64,000 nt of DNA. Source: Pseudophaeomoniella oleicola. Its lineage: Eukaryota; Ascomycota; Eurotiomycetes; Phaeomoniellales; Phaeomoniellaceae. The notes beneath the pieces were generated by a model. The model ran no database searches and was not told the origin of the DNA. It saw only the letters and a list, made by a program, of their open reading frames with translations. Of the stretch, positions 47,637 through 56,890 are shown in pieces (within the stretch, counting starts at the first letter, position 1; every line of letters begins with the position of its first letter). The stretch lies in NCBI GenBank assembly GCA_003868215.1, contig QWDQ01000014.1:124001-188000 (forward strand), written 5' to 3'. Position numbers and translations under genes: made by a program.

Positions 47637-49404
47637 TCACAGTTTCGCTTTCCTTTCCTTTGCCGCCATCGCTCTCAGATCCTTACGCAAGATCTTGCCG
47701 GAAGGGCTTTTAGGTATCGACAGCACGAACCTCACTCCTCCTCTCAATTGTTTATAAGGAGCCGAATCCTTCTTCATGTATTCCTGAATCTCAGCTTCCG
47801 AGACGTTCTTCTGGTCGGCCACCACATAGGCACGCGGTAGCTCTGTCGCCTCTCCTTCAACTCCGATGACTGCTGCATCGATAATCGAGGGATGCGAAAT
47901 GAGCTTAGCTTCCAGTTCCGCAGGCGCTACACCATGGCCTTTGTATTTGATCATTTCCTTCTTACGATCCACGATGAACACCAGTCCGTTTTCTATGTAA
48001 CCTATATCGCCCGTGCGGAACCATCCATCTTCCGAAAATGCTTCACGGGTAGCTTGTTCATTATTATGATACTATCCAATGAGAATCAGTACGAACGAAC
48101 TTTCGACCGCAAGATAGAGTGTGGGACTTGCCTTTTTAAAGACGAGAGGCCCTTTGATTAGAAGCTCCCCTGGCCTTTTATCTGACCCCTGAAGCTCCAT
48201 CCCACTCTCATCGACGACTTTCAGCTGTGCGTTGCGGGCTGGACAGCCGACACTGCCAATGTAGCCTCCCTGACTGGGAGGAGGGATTGTGACGGCACCG
48301 GTCTGTCAATGAAATAGTTAGCATCTGTGGTCTGAACTCGGAAACAATTCTTACTGTTTCGGTGAGACCCCAGGTCTGGAAGATAGCAAGGCCAGCCCTT
48401 CCCAGTTTCTTCCCGGCTGCCAATTGCAACTCTCTTCCCATCGGGGCAGCACTTGACATAGCTTGCTCGAGATCCTGAAATTGATCCGTCACCATGGGAC
48501 TCTTCGCGATGAGCAAATATATCGGCGGCACCGAGAGGCAAAAGGTGATGCGGTGCCTTTTGTGATACGTGAGGAACTTAGGCCAGTCAAAACCCTTCAT
48601 CCAATACGTCTCTCCTCCCACTATGCTAGGATTGAGAAACGATCCTTGAACACCTGCCACGTGAGAGCACGGCAAATGAGCCAGGGTCCGAAACTCATAC
48701 CGCCCACCGCCTTGCGAAACGTAGTTCAGCTTCATGGCTTTCCACAGAAGAGTTTCCGCAACGAAGTTGCAGTGGGAAGTGCTTACTCCTTTCGGTGCTG
48801 CCGTTGTGCCAGAAGTATACAGTAGGCAAACGGTCCTGTGCACCAATATCGCCGGGTCGATGACGTGTTCCCAGTCCAATTCACTGTCAGATATGCATGC
48901 GATCCCATCTCCTACGGACGTAAGGCGAGGCTTTGGACAAGACCCAAGAACCAATACTCTTGTCAAAGGGAGTCCGCACTCTTTCGCTGCCTTGCATGCC
49001 GTCTCCCTCAGATCCTCACTACAGACCAAAACCGTGGCCCTAGCATCCCGGACCTGCCTCGCTAGTTCTACCGCACCAGACCCCGAAGCCGCCGCAGAAA
49101 ATACGCCACCCGCTGCAACGATCGCATAGAATGCCACTGGTAACATGGTCTGACCCGTTGAAAAGCAAAGAACGACGTCGCCATCATCTCTCTCCTGCCC
49201 AATTCCAAACTTATGCCTCAACGCCCAGGCAATTCTTTTGGTCAACGTACGTGCCATGCCCTTTGTAATGTATACGGTAGGATCTGCCGCGTCAATGTGC
49301 CATTTTGTATCATCTGTGCCATCCGCATACTCCGAGTCGAAAAGGAGAGTCAATATATCTAGTTTGGGAATGCCGTAGCTTTCGGGCCATTCTGACGAGG
49401 CCAT
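47637..49404 (-). CDS. AMP-forming acyl-CoA synthetase / 4-coumarate-CoA ligase-like, peroxisomal
   Basis: ANL-superfamily ligase that activates a carboxylic acid with ATP and CoA. Exons 49404-48355, 48302-48132 and 48071-47637 give 551 aa. The start at 49404 (MASSEWPESYGIPKLD) fits the family; an ORF start at 49479 is less likely. The P-loop motif is LLYTSGTTAAPKGV, A5 is QTWGLTET, A7 is WFRTGDIGY, A8 is FIVDRKKEMIKYKGHGVAPAE and the catalytic lysine is in SPSGKILRKDL. The protein ends KAKL; AKL is a type-1 peroxisomal targeting signal. The second intron is GC-AG (donor GCAAGT). The substrate is unknown: medium-chain or aromatic acids are typical of this clade. Confidence 0.92.
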
Positions 49405-53924: not shown

Positions 53925-54373
53925 AGGATGATAGCAAAACGCACGGTAGTCACTAGCGATCCATGGTCTCTGTGGAGTCTCCACAGCACACTCACGGTAA
54001 TGGAATAGCGATGGCGTTAAAAGGCGATACCACACAAGGCTCAAATTTCTAGCAACAAAAAGGATAGTGTGCTCATGCATGCTGTCCGGTTAGCTACCTA
54101 CCTAGGTGCTTAGTTATCTTAATGAATCACTCACGAGAGTCGCAAAAATCATATGCATGAACTCATCTTTTCATACCCCTTTTTCCACCGGTGACCCCTT
54201 CTTTCCAGAGCAAAAATGAGTAAACACCTAATCAAAGACAAACAATATTGTTTGTATATGGACCATGAACAAACAACCCTCCCTCCCCTTTCCCCTCTCC
54301 CCCAAAAAATAAATTAAATAAAATGCTCCAAGAAATCAATTGATTCCAATCTCAGATTTGTTGTCTGTGTTAT
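53925..54373. other. intergenic between PAP2 gene and tRNA
   Basis: About 450 bp. On the minus strand, T runs that could end Pol III transcription of the tRNA lie at 54320-54323 (TTTT) and 54304-54309 (TTTTTT), roughly 50 and 65 nt past the tRNA 3' end. Confidence 0.4.
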
Positions 54374-54540
54374 TGCCCTCACTCAGAATCGAACTGAGAA
54401 TCTCCTCATTACACATCATTGCTATGCATACTAGTGAGGCGCTAGACCTGGACAGCATTCAAATTATTAGAATGATTCCCAGTAAGAAAAGAGGGCGGCG
54501 GAGTGACGAAGGTGCGAACTCACCATTAAGCCATAAGGGC
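54374..54540 (-). tRNA. tRNA-Thr (anticodon AGT), split by a canonical intron and a D-loop insert
   Basis: Minus strand. The 3' half is clear: anticodon stem CCTCA/TGAGG, loop CTAGTAA, T arm CTCAG-TTCGATT-CTGAG, then TGAGGGC and discriminator A. The anticodon loop holds a 19-nt insert at the standard site after position 37 (54410-54428). No partner for TGAGGGC adjoins the D arm, but GCCCTTA at 54540-54534 pairs with it fully (one G-U). It is followed by TGGCTTAATGG, a good A box. Between lies a 76-nt insert (54448-54523). Removing both gives a 72-nt cloverleaf. Weak points: position 13-22 is U-U and position 21 is C, not A. It could be a disrupted pseudogene. Confidence 0.68.
54448..54523 (-). 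other. 76-nt GT-AG insert in the tRNA-Thr D loop
   Basis: Read on the minus strand it begins GTGAGT, has a CTAAT branch-like site about 20 nt before its end, and ends CCAG, so it has all three spliceosomal signals. GGT occurs at both junctions, which would fit a 3-bp target-site duplication or simple boundary sliding. Because the insert itself starts with GT, the tRNA A box stays intact. Confidence 0.55.
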
Positions 54541-54955: not shown

Positions 54956-56890
54956 TTAGAATCTGCTGGGAGCACTGATATCCCGGATCCCGCCGATTAA
55001 CCCTCTTCGCGCGCTTCCTGGGACATGTCCAACTTGGCTCCTCTTCATGCTGATACTTCTCGCTCTGTCTCTTCTTGCACGGATTTGTGCCAAGGCTGCT
55101 TCGCGACTGATCGGTGTACCGGGAACGTTGAAGTCAGCATCTGGGGCAGGTGTTCCAGGGGTGTCGGGAGCAATTGCGCAGTAATCTGATTCACCATCAT
55201 GGTCACGCAGCGGAATTGTGACTGTTGTTGTTTGAGAGTGGACCGCGTAATTCAAAGGACGACATGGAGTCTCATATGAGGCATGGTTATCACTGCACGA
55301 CGATGGCTCGGCGCCTGGAGGTGTGGACTCGATCGGTTCCGGCAGGGACTGGAGTTGAGGTTCAGGTGAAGCTGCAATCGAGTGGACTGCCGGTGATTTT
55401 GAACTTTCGGTTGCAGATACACTATCATTGACTGGACCGATGTCAAACAGGTCTTCAGCAATGTCACCGTTGGACAAGACTCGATCTTCTCGAACAACGG
55501 GACAAGGCTCAGGAGAGTTGGGAAGAGGATGGTTAGCAGCATCCGCGCTTGGCGAAGCCACCGAATAGTGCGAGTCGTCATCCACTTTATCCTTCGTTCC
55601 AAGGTCATGGACAGGCCCGTCATCATGCTCCTGTTCCTTGGAGTCAATCTTGTCGATACTTCCGACCTGCTGAGCCAGTTGAACATTCTCAGCAGCATCG
55701 GTATCCTGAGCTTGCTCCTCTTGTCTCCTCTCTGCTGACAGAGCACGCATCCTGTTGTCATATTCTACATCATGCACAAAACGTTTACCTTCTTTCTCTG
55801 CCCGACGACATGCGCAACAATTAAATTGGCATTCCATGTTCATGAAGTCCACGAGATCCTCAGCTTCCAGCCTGAGTTTCTTTTCCCATAGTAGCTCGGC
55901 CCTGAGGTCTTCAAAACGATCACGGATGTCGATGTCATCCTCATCGTCCAGCGTCGACTTGAAGAAAGTTTCACGTCTGCCTTTGAGTGGATTGGCGAAT
56001 ATCGGATAAACCTCATCTTCCATAGCAGTAGATAGAAGCGGTCGTTCGAAGCGATTCCGCCTACGTGGTGCCTCGGAGGACGTTTCCGAGTGTGCGCCTT
56101 CTTCGTCATACGCCTGTTTGTAATCGACAGTCGCAACCTGAATGGAATCGATCTCCATGTCATCTGCAGATTCTTGCTTGATTTGAAGCTCATCGGCTTG
56201 TTGTTGCAGCAGTTCAGATTCTTTGTCTGATTTCAGTGACCTTAGCTCCTCTTTTAAAGACTGCATCTCTTCGGTGATACCGGCCAATGTATATGCTCTC
56301 TCAAAGGCTTCCTGTCGTGCCTTTTCTTTTTCGAAGCGCTCCCTTTGGTTCGTCGACTTGAGATTCCTATTCTCCGTCCTTGCTTCTTTCAGGTCCTCTT
56401 GCAACTTGACTAATGCTGATCCAGCTCGAAATGCATCCTTCCGGGCCCGCTTCACTTCCTTCTCATAGACTTGTCGCTCATGTGCCTGCCTCTCTTTCGT
56501 GCTTTGTAGCTCCTCCATGAGAGAGTCTAGCCGTTCACTAATCTTTCTTTCTCTTGCCTGAGCTTCTGCCATGTCTTGTTGTATTTCTTTCAAAGCCGAT
56601 TCGGCTTCTTCCCGTCCAAGGATGGCTCGCTGAAGAGCGGCAGTTGTGGAGTTACCGTGTGTGTGGGAAGCGTTGATGTTCTGACGTTGGAGGCCATTCA
56701 GAAATGCGACTTTGGATTGTACATCAGATGACATGCGATGATGCTTCGAGTCACCCAACCGATCAGGTAATGATGGTGACATTGGTAGCCGTTGCTGATT
56801 CATGCGGTCTGGTGAGACAGGATGCAGAGCAGTTGAGCCCGTGGGCGCCTTGAAAGGACTAGGAGGATCCATGGCTATGCTTTCGCCCAT
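54956..56890 (-). CDS. coiled-coil fungal protein with CxxCxC-like Cys cluster (unknown function)
   Basis: A single exon of 644 aa; function not recognised. Layout: a Pro/Ser-rich N-terminus with SP motifs (PPSPFK, HPVSPDR, PMSPSLPDR) that look like proline-directed kinase sites, then a short block SKVAFLNGLQRQNINAS, then a coiled coil from about residue 80 to 240. An acidic linker follows, then a second short helix ELLWEKKLRLEAEDLVDFMN joined to MECQFNCCACRRAEKEGKRF. The C-terminal half is disordered and Asp/Ser-rich, ending in a basic stretch with ALAQIRARRDRARS. Such layouts occur in spindle-pole or septation proteins, but I have no family evidence. Start ATGs at 56890 and 56872 are both possible. 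Confidence 0.78.
   Translation of the reverse strand: MGESIAMDPPSPFKAPTGSTALHPVSPDRMNQQRLPMSPSLPDRLGDSKHHRMSSDVQSKVAFLNGLQRQNINASHTHGNSTTAALQRAILGREEAESALKEIQQDMAEAQARERKISERLDSLMEELQSTKERQAHERQVYEKEVKRARKDAFRAGSALVKLQEDLKEARTENRNLKSTNQRERFEKEKARQEAFERAYTLAGITEEMQSLKEELRSLKSDKESELLQQQADELQIKQESADDMEIDSIQVATVDYKQAYDEEGAHSETSSEAPRRRNRFERPLLSTAMEDEVYPIFANPLKGRRETFFKSTLDDEDDIDIRDRFEDLRAELLWEKKLRLEAEDLVDFMNMECQFNCCACRRAEKEGKRFVHDVEYDNRMRALSAERRQEEQAQDTDAAENVQLAQQVGSIDKIDSKEQEHDDGPVHDLGTKDKVDDDSHYSVASPSADAANHPLPNSPEPCPVVREDRVLSNGDIAEDLFDIGPVNDSVSATESSKSPAVHSIAASPEPQLQSLPEPIESTPPGAEPSSCSDNHASYETPCRPLNYAVHSQTTTVTIPLRDHDGESDYCAIAPDTPGTPAPDADFNVPGTPISREAALAQIRARRDRARSISMKRSQVGHVPGSARRGLIGGIRDISAPSRF

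Follow-up and report, generated by a model that had tools for sequence, protein, structure and literature searches.

Introns of the messenger RNA (mRNA) type in fungal U6 genes were reportedly described in papers of 1989 and 2016. According to the available portion of one paper (PMC5832005), no small structured RNAs other than U6 and U3 are known to carry an intron frequently, and lichen ribosomal DNA (rDNA) carries ectopic spliceosomal introns which, according to the accessible part of another, are removed from RNA polymerase I (Pol I) transcripts in yeast (PMC8527467). By the available text of PMC4090602, an insertion in the D or T arm of a eukaryotic transfer RNA (tRNA) gene is generally read as the sign of a pseudogene, except in nucleomorphs and Cyanidioschyzon merolae, and models for archaeal non-canonical introns are found in PMC8450103, in the accessible text of which no word in spliceosom- was found. 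Among the matches listed in a literature search whose scope left outside most subscription journals and preprints, no title or abstract opening reported spliceosomal introns in tRNA genes. The gene described here, a tRNA-Thr(AGT) gene of the ascomycete Pseudophaeomoniella oleicola, lies in a stretch of 64,000 nucleotides (the window; contig C19:124001-188000 of a 26.1-Mb, 112-contig assembly) and is interrupted in its D loop by an insert of 76 nucleotides (nt). Its sequence suggests that this insert is a U2-type spliceosomal intron in a gene of RNA polymerase III (Pol III) and that it belongs to a set of nine or more such introns, located at sites from 15/16 to 32/33 in the tRNA genes of this genome, a reading to which a probability of roughly 0.85 is assigned.

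The Rfam tRNA model, applied to a 501-base stretch, aligns with the window gene from end to end (54540..54374, 39.3 bits, gathering threshold 29) and leaves a single insert in each of the D and anticodon loops. The coordinates which the earlier note had proposed from the letters alone are right, and the gene is on the minus strand (Table 1). That note had called for a count of further tRNA-Thr(AGT) genes; a second one, C43:100153-100224 on the minus strand, is 72 nt long, uninterrupted, intronless and scores 62.9 bits with Rfam. Once the 76-nt insert and the 19-nt intron at the canonical 37/38 site are taken out, the window gene is identical to this C43 gene at 72/72 positions, which bears out both the shorter intron and the 72-nt product that had been proposed, and a scripted deletion scan with a first insert of 60-94 nt found that only the pair of 76 and 19 nt reproduces the C43 sequence. 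Four placements of the D-loop insert are equivalent, and one of them gives the GTGAGT, CTAAT and CCAG named in the earlier note. The U13-U22 pair and C21 had been noted there as caveats; they belong to this tRNA and are not damage, because the intact C43 gene has them too. Over 300 nt, the flanks of the two Thr genes are no more alike than shuffled sequence (40/100 shuffles equal or better on the 5' side, 61/100 on the 3' side) and the genes therefore share their tRNA bases but no detectable flank, which could be explained by selection on the exons, by gene conversion or by recent retrocopying of a spliced tRNA. Both introns together are missing from the C43 gene (L006), which is what retrocopying of a fully spliced tRNA would produce, and the gene could have arisen in this way. 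The predicted fold of the unspliced window precursor was unremarkable (z -1.24).

Table 1. Location of the interrupted tRNA genes and of the parts of the window gene. Positions without a contig name are those of the window; site numbers were assigned by hand.
Feature	Location	Strand	Remarks
tRNA-Thr(AGT) gene with two introns	54374..54540	minus	Rfam tRNA model full length, 39.3 bits; spliced form 72/72 identical to C43:100153-100224
Exon 1, 17 nt, to tRNA position 18: acceptor 5' strand, D-stem 5' strand, D-loop start	54524..54540	minus	
GT..AG intron, 76 nt, D loop, site 18/19	54448..54523	minus	GTGAGT...CTAAT...CCAG; absent from C43 paralog
Putative branch site CTAAT	54466..54470	minus	Branch A at 54467, 19 nt before intron end
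Exon 2: D-stem 3' strand, anticodon-stem 5' strand, AGT anticodon	54429..54447	minus	
Ordinary 37/38 intron, 19 nt, four equivalent registers	54410..54428	minus	Absent from C43
Exon 3: anticodon-stem 3' strand, T arm, acceptor 3' strand, discriminator A	54374..54409	minus	
A-box-like TGGCTTAATGG, final G being the first intron base	54523..54533	minus	From sequence
B-box core GTTCGATTC	54386..54394	minus	Pattern match
Late, weak terminator candidate: first TTTT (54323-54320) and T6 (54309-54304)	54304..54323	minus	
tRNA-Phe(GAA)	C36:747079-747232	minus	81 nt, site 16/17; no 37/38 intron
tRNA-Arg(ACG)	C29:233258-233380	plus	51 nt, site 32/33; no 37/38 intron
tRNA-Lys(TTT)	C85:19847-19980	plus	60 nt, site 19/20; no 37/38 intron
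tRNA-Pro(TGG)	C1:379568-379703	plus	51 nt, site 24/25; plus 37/38 intron
tRNA-Pro(TGG)	C35:74606-74743	minus	51 nt, site 24/25; plus 37/38 intron
tRNA-Gln(CTG)	C61:108105-108255	minus	60 nt, site 23/24; plus 37/38 intron
tRNA-Tyr(GTA)	C54:42248-42429	plus	88 nt, site 26/27; plus 37/38 intron
tRNA-Leu(AAG)	C91:145306-145466	plus	61 nt, site 15/16; plus 37/38 intron

The case singled out by the earlier note is real but not single, since at least nine such genes are present in the genome. Further tRNA genes were sought with patterns of a B box followed by a run of five T (T5), which gave, beyond at least those matches listed for the first of them, 91 and 50 matches for two others, many of them overlapping; 38 places were picked by eye from these matches and read. 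A genome-wide Rfam search, in which 63 of 781 candidates were scored, gave 46 matches, 15 of them on the 31-kb contig C110, which is taken to be mitochondrial, and none of the nine interrupted loci is among the 46. Counted by hand, the Rfam and B-box results amount to 51 nuclear tRNA loci, mostly one per isoacceptor, plus the tRNA-like locus L103 discussed below. Nine of the 51 carry an insert of 51-88 nt outside the 37/38 position, and more interrupted genes of this kind may have been missed. The inserts occupy eight different sites, seven in or beside the D arm and one in the anticodon loop, none of which is the canonical one, and six of these genes (Thr, both Pro, Gln, Tyr and Leu) contain an ordinary 37/38 intron besides. 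After removal of the inserts ARAGORN assigns the expected type to all nine spliced forms; unspliced, the window gene is mistyped as Trp(CCA) and seven of the eight other loci are typed unlike their spliced forms. In their unspliced state the Arg gene (44.3 bits) and the two Pro genes (29.0 and 28.8 bits) are matched by the Rfam tRNA model over the full length at an expectation value (E) of 0.1. Over the whole window, an Rfam run at the gathering threshold did not have the Thr(AGT) gene among its matches and ARAGORN found nothing.

All nine inserts begin with GTNNGY (GTGAGT, GTAAGT twice, GTGAGC twice, GTACGT, GTTCGT, GTAGGT and GTATGT), end in CAG or TAG and contain a branch-like YTNAY, which reads CTAAC in five, with its A 11-20 nt before the end. 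The limits of the inserts were also assessed without recourse to these signals by scoring each interval that leaves a tRNA-sized molecule on cloverleaf pairing and conserved bases only. The GT-AG interval is the sole optimum in the Arg and both Pro genes and shares the top score with others in Phe (20 tied intervals) and Tyr (2). In the window gene its spliced form scores 50.5, the same as the intact C43 gene, and the rival interval found there is thus a scoring artefact. Intervals within 3.5 points of the best were then examined in 400 dinucleotide shuffles of the insert at each locus; the strict signals occur near the cloverleaf optimum in 9/9 real inserts and in 11/3600 shuffled sequences, a comparison to be read with the fact that the strict pattern was framed only after the inserts had been viewed. 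Bare GT..AG near the optimum was found in 814/3600 shuffles and therefore proves nothing alone. For the window gene, where chance pairing had been raised as a caveat, the strict signals turned up in 0/400 shuffles and mere GT..AG in 26/400. ARAGORN called introns in 39 loci, namely seven of the nine, L103 and 31 others; the strict signals are present in 0/31 of the latter, one of which is loosely GT-AG, but this control is weaker than its number because only four of its introns are 50 nt or longer, most being short, and because some ARAGORN intron positions are probably off, a few genes being mistyped. Searched with Rfam models, neither the window stretch nor the eight other loci (E 0.1) gave a group I or group II catalytic core.

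One alternative is that the tRNA splicing endonuclease excises the inserts as non-canonical tRNA introns, in the manner of C. merolae, archaea and perhaps nucleomorphs. Introns in the D, anticodon and T arms exist in those lineages, according to the available parts of two papers (PMC4090602, PMC9602550), and the ordinary intron that accompanies six of the nine inserts would be in keeping with such an enzyme. The 4-bp central helix that lies between two 3-nt bulges in a bulge-helix-bulge motif is formed at none of the nine junctions (best 3/4), a simple and weak test in that six ordinary introns also fall short of 4/4. The nine inserts have mostly unrelated sequences otherwise. The tRNA endonuclease is not known to require GTNNGY, a branch site or YAG, and the sharing of these signals makes processing by the endonuclease alone decidedly unlikely. 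The earlier note had offered an introner-like insert instead, and a spread of introners or other multicopy mobile elements into tRNA genes would account for many inserts of similar size. No other match to the 76-nt insert was found in the genome (it is the only one of the nine searched singly), and the nine introns are mutually dissimilar except for the paralogous Pro pair. A similarity was seen between the Leu intron and one mRNA intron (0/200 shuffles scored as high), which is read as a shared branch-site region. A mobile-element origin is accordingly considered very unlikely.

Whether these genes work can be judged from their copies. The seven spliced sequences besides Thr, with one for the Pro pair, were searched against the genome as a single 521-nt query, and every one of the 16 matches was either at an interrupted locus or on C93, where a second, diverged Leu(AAG) gene lies; for Phe, Tyr, Arg(ACG), Lys(TTT), Pro(TGG) and Gln(CTG) this search gave no copy free of an insert. 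Since Phe(GAA) and Tyr(GTA) tRNAs are indispensable, the Phe and Tyr genes should work unless the assembly misses an intact copy. The exons of the two Pro(TGG) genes are identical at 72/72 positions, their D-arm introns are identical at 40/51, with GTGAGC (the 5' splice site) and ATACTTACAATGA.ATAG (branch site through AG) conserved, and their 37/38 introns measure 13 and 15 nt. Identical exons together with introns that diverge outside kept signals are what working introns show, and Phe, Tyr and the Pro pair carry most of the argument that the genes function. Pseudogenes, in which introns or short insertions landed in spare tRNA copies, are the usual reading of short D- or T-arm insertions in eukaryotic tRNA genes in the text available of PMC4090602, and an intact Thr(AGT) gene, a second Leu(AAG) gene and the weak terminator of the window copy would suit it. 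Set against this are the 72/72 exons of the window gene relative to C43 and of the Pro pair, the six isoacceptors with no detected intact copy and the uniform splice signals, which together render a collection of dead copies extremely unlikely. The suggestion in the earlier note that the insert may have killed the gene is not supported, on the same grounds, as genes for which no intact copy was detected carry the same kind of intron.

Several points weigh against the reading of these inserts as spliceosomal introns of working tRNA genes. In the cloverleaf test the GT-AG interval lies 1, 1.5, 2.5 and 3.5 points under the best in Leu, Gln, Lys and Thr, respectively. At E 0.1 the unspliced Phe and Lys genes are only partially matched by the Rfam tRNA model (30.8 and 30.4 bits), and the unspliced Gln, Leu and Tyr genes are not matched. 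The Thr gene has an intact paralog, so that the window copy alone need not work, and its first T run begins 51 nt downstream. All loci but the window gene (8/9) were picked by patterns requiring T5 near the B box, and the terminators of these eight are therefore not independent evidence. The patterns used turned up no convincing gene for Asp(GTC) or Trp(CCA), two Trp candidates being without an Rfam tRNA match (E 0.1), which means that either the census or the assembly has gaps, into which an intact Phe or Tyr gene could also have fallen; the Asp and Trp genes may be more heavily interrupted or unassembled. For the interrupted locus L103 no good GT-AG or GC-AG solution was found, and the strict 5' pattern is missed by the U6 intron (GTTTGG) and by two of the four mRNA introns (GTAAGA and a GC-AG intron) that are described below.

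Some of the places read in the census stand apart. L103/L128, near 299875-300050 of C21 on the minus strand, is tRNA-like, with 7/7 acceptor pairing, an A box and a B box, and is about 92 nt too long. L099 (C42:130488-131088) contains two adjoining tRNA-Ala(AGC) genes, one with a 17-nt intron and the other without. L094, L096, L114, L115, L116 and L118 form a dispersed family of about 200 nt which shares GACCTGCGACGGC or similar and a tRNA-like B box and has ends such as GGTCA or GACCA. No Rfam match was found at E 0.1 for the members L094 and L114 or for the looser L117, and the family is possibly a Pol III small RNA or a tRNA-derived repeat.

Other spliceosomal introns of this genome offer a standard of comparison. 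The U6 small nuclear RNA gene (L058 1501-1656 minus; C32:203080-203235, minus; 70.1 bits) is interrupted between AGATTAG and CATGG by a 56-nt insert of the mRNA type, GTTTGGG...TGCTAATATTTGCGTCTAG, with GT..CTAAT..TAG. Four introns of protein genes in the window were used, each bounded by homologs or Pfam domains in adjoining frames. An acyl-CoA ligase intron, GTAAGA..GCTAACTATTTCATTGACAG, is 52 nt long with a GCTAAC branch and CAG (a 43-nt form is also in frame), and the same acyl-CoA ligase-like gene (window 47700-48230, minus) has a 60-nt GC-AG intron, GCAAGT..ACTGATTCTCATTGGATAG, with ACTGAT..TAG. The ClC channel intron runs GTATGT..CTGACAG or ..CTGACAGATTTAG (43 or 49 nt) and the Misato intron GTTTGC..CTAACCATGACAG (46 nt, CTAAC..CAG). 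The branch sites of these mRNA introns (CTAAC, CTGAC and CTGAT) resemble those of the tRNA inserts, which are, if anything, closer to consensus than the U6 and mRNA introns. A codon-bias scan for mRNA introns was dropped; it yielded 1, 0 and 18 non-overlapping candidates, and among the 18 only GTNNGY in 3 and YTNAY in 6. Protein similarity places the fungus among filamentous ascomycetes close to Eurotiomycetes: for the She9/Mdm33 protein, Phaeomoniella chlamydospora gives the best match from a named organism (63% over 73%), and Cirrosporium, Endocarpon and Aspergillus come next among the named ones.

GT-AG introns are as a rule a feature of RNA polymerase II (Pol II) RNA, and it may be asked whether these tRNAs are processed from ordinary Pol II precursors on which the spliceosome acts. 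An open reading frame of 644 amino acids (54956-56890) lies on the same strand as the window gene, which follows about 415 nt downstream of it. Against a Pol II origin stand the A-box-like and B-box sequences in the loci and the U6 precedent, by which splicing requires no Pol II transcript, and such an origin is thought unlikely. As the simplest and most likely pathway it is proposed instead that Pol III, directed by the internal A and B boxes, would transcribe the gene in full and that the GT-AG intron would then be removed by the spliceosome, as presumably happens to the intron of the U6 gene in this fungus. Once the GT-AG intron is gone, the D arm or anticodon loop could fold; the ordinary 37/38 intron, where present, would be removed by the tRNA endonuclease and ligase, and the usual tRNA maturation would come next. 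The earlier note was right about an intron of the spliceosomal type in the D loop, and its removal by an unexpected route is plausible.

If this pathway operates, the spliceosome would probably be an essential tRNA-maturation enzyme, as Phe, Tyr, Pro(TGG), Arg(ACG), Lys(TTT) and Gln(CTG) would be available only from genes with spliceosomal introns, translation would depend on the splicing of Pol III transcripts, and introns would have colonised tRNA genes at eight sites. The splicing of mRNA and of tRNA is taught as two separate pathways with separate enzymes, which spliceosome-dependent tRNA genes would link, and Pol III transcripts beyond U6 could then be routine spliceosome substrates. Short and rigid, with every insertion site and exon base readable, tRNAs would also make a clean system for the study of intron gain. 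Annotations of fungal genomes may miss or misname such genes, given that the genome-wide Rfam search missed all nine and ARAGORN mistyped most of them.

Compared with the described systems, the tRNA introns of C. merolae, nucleomorphs and archaea are similar in that, as far as the accessible parts of the papers describe them, they too lie in the D arm and in the anticodon loop outside 37/38, with more than one in some genes. Those of C. merolae and archaea have junctions of the bulge-helix-bulge type in the same sources, whereas GT, a branch site and AG are found here. Ordinary eukaryotic 37/38 introns are carried by six of the nine loci as well, but they occupy another site, and strict spliceosomal signals are found in 0/31 other loci in which ARAGORN calls an intron. 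The lichen rDNA introns are likewise spliceosomal introns in non-mRNA of filamentous ascomycetes, according to the part of that work available, and differ in that their host is a Pol I ribosomal RNA and here a Pol III tRNA. The introns of fungal U6 and U3 are again of the spliceosomal type in short, highly structured RNA, U6 being itself a Pol III transcript, and the difference is that the host RNA in P. oleicola is a tRNA.
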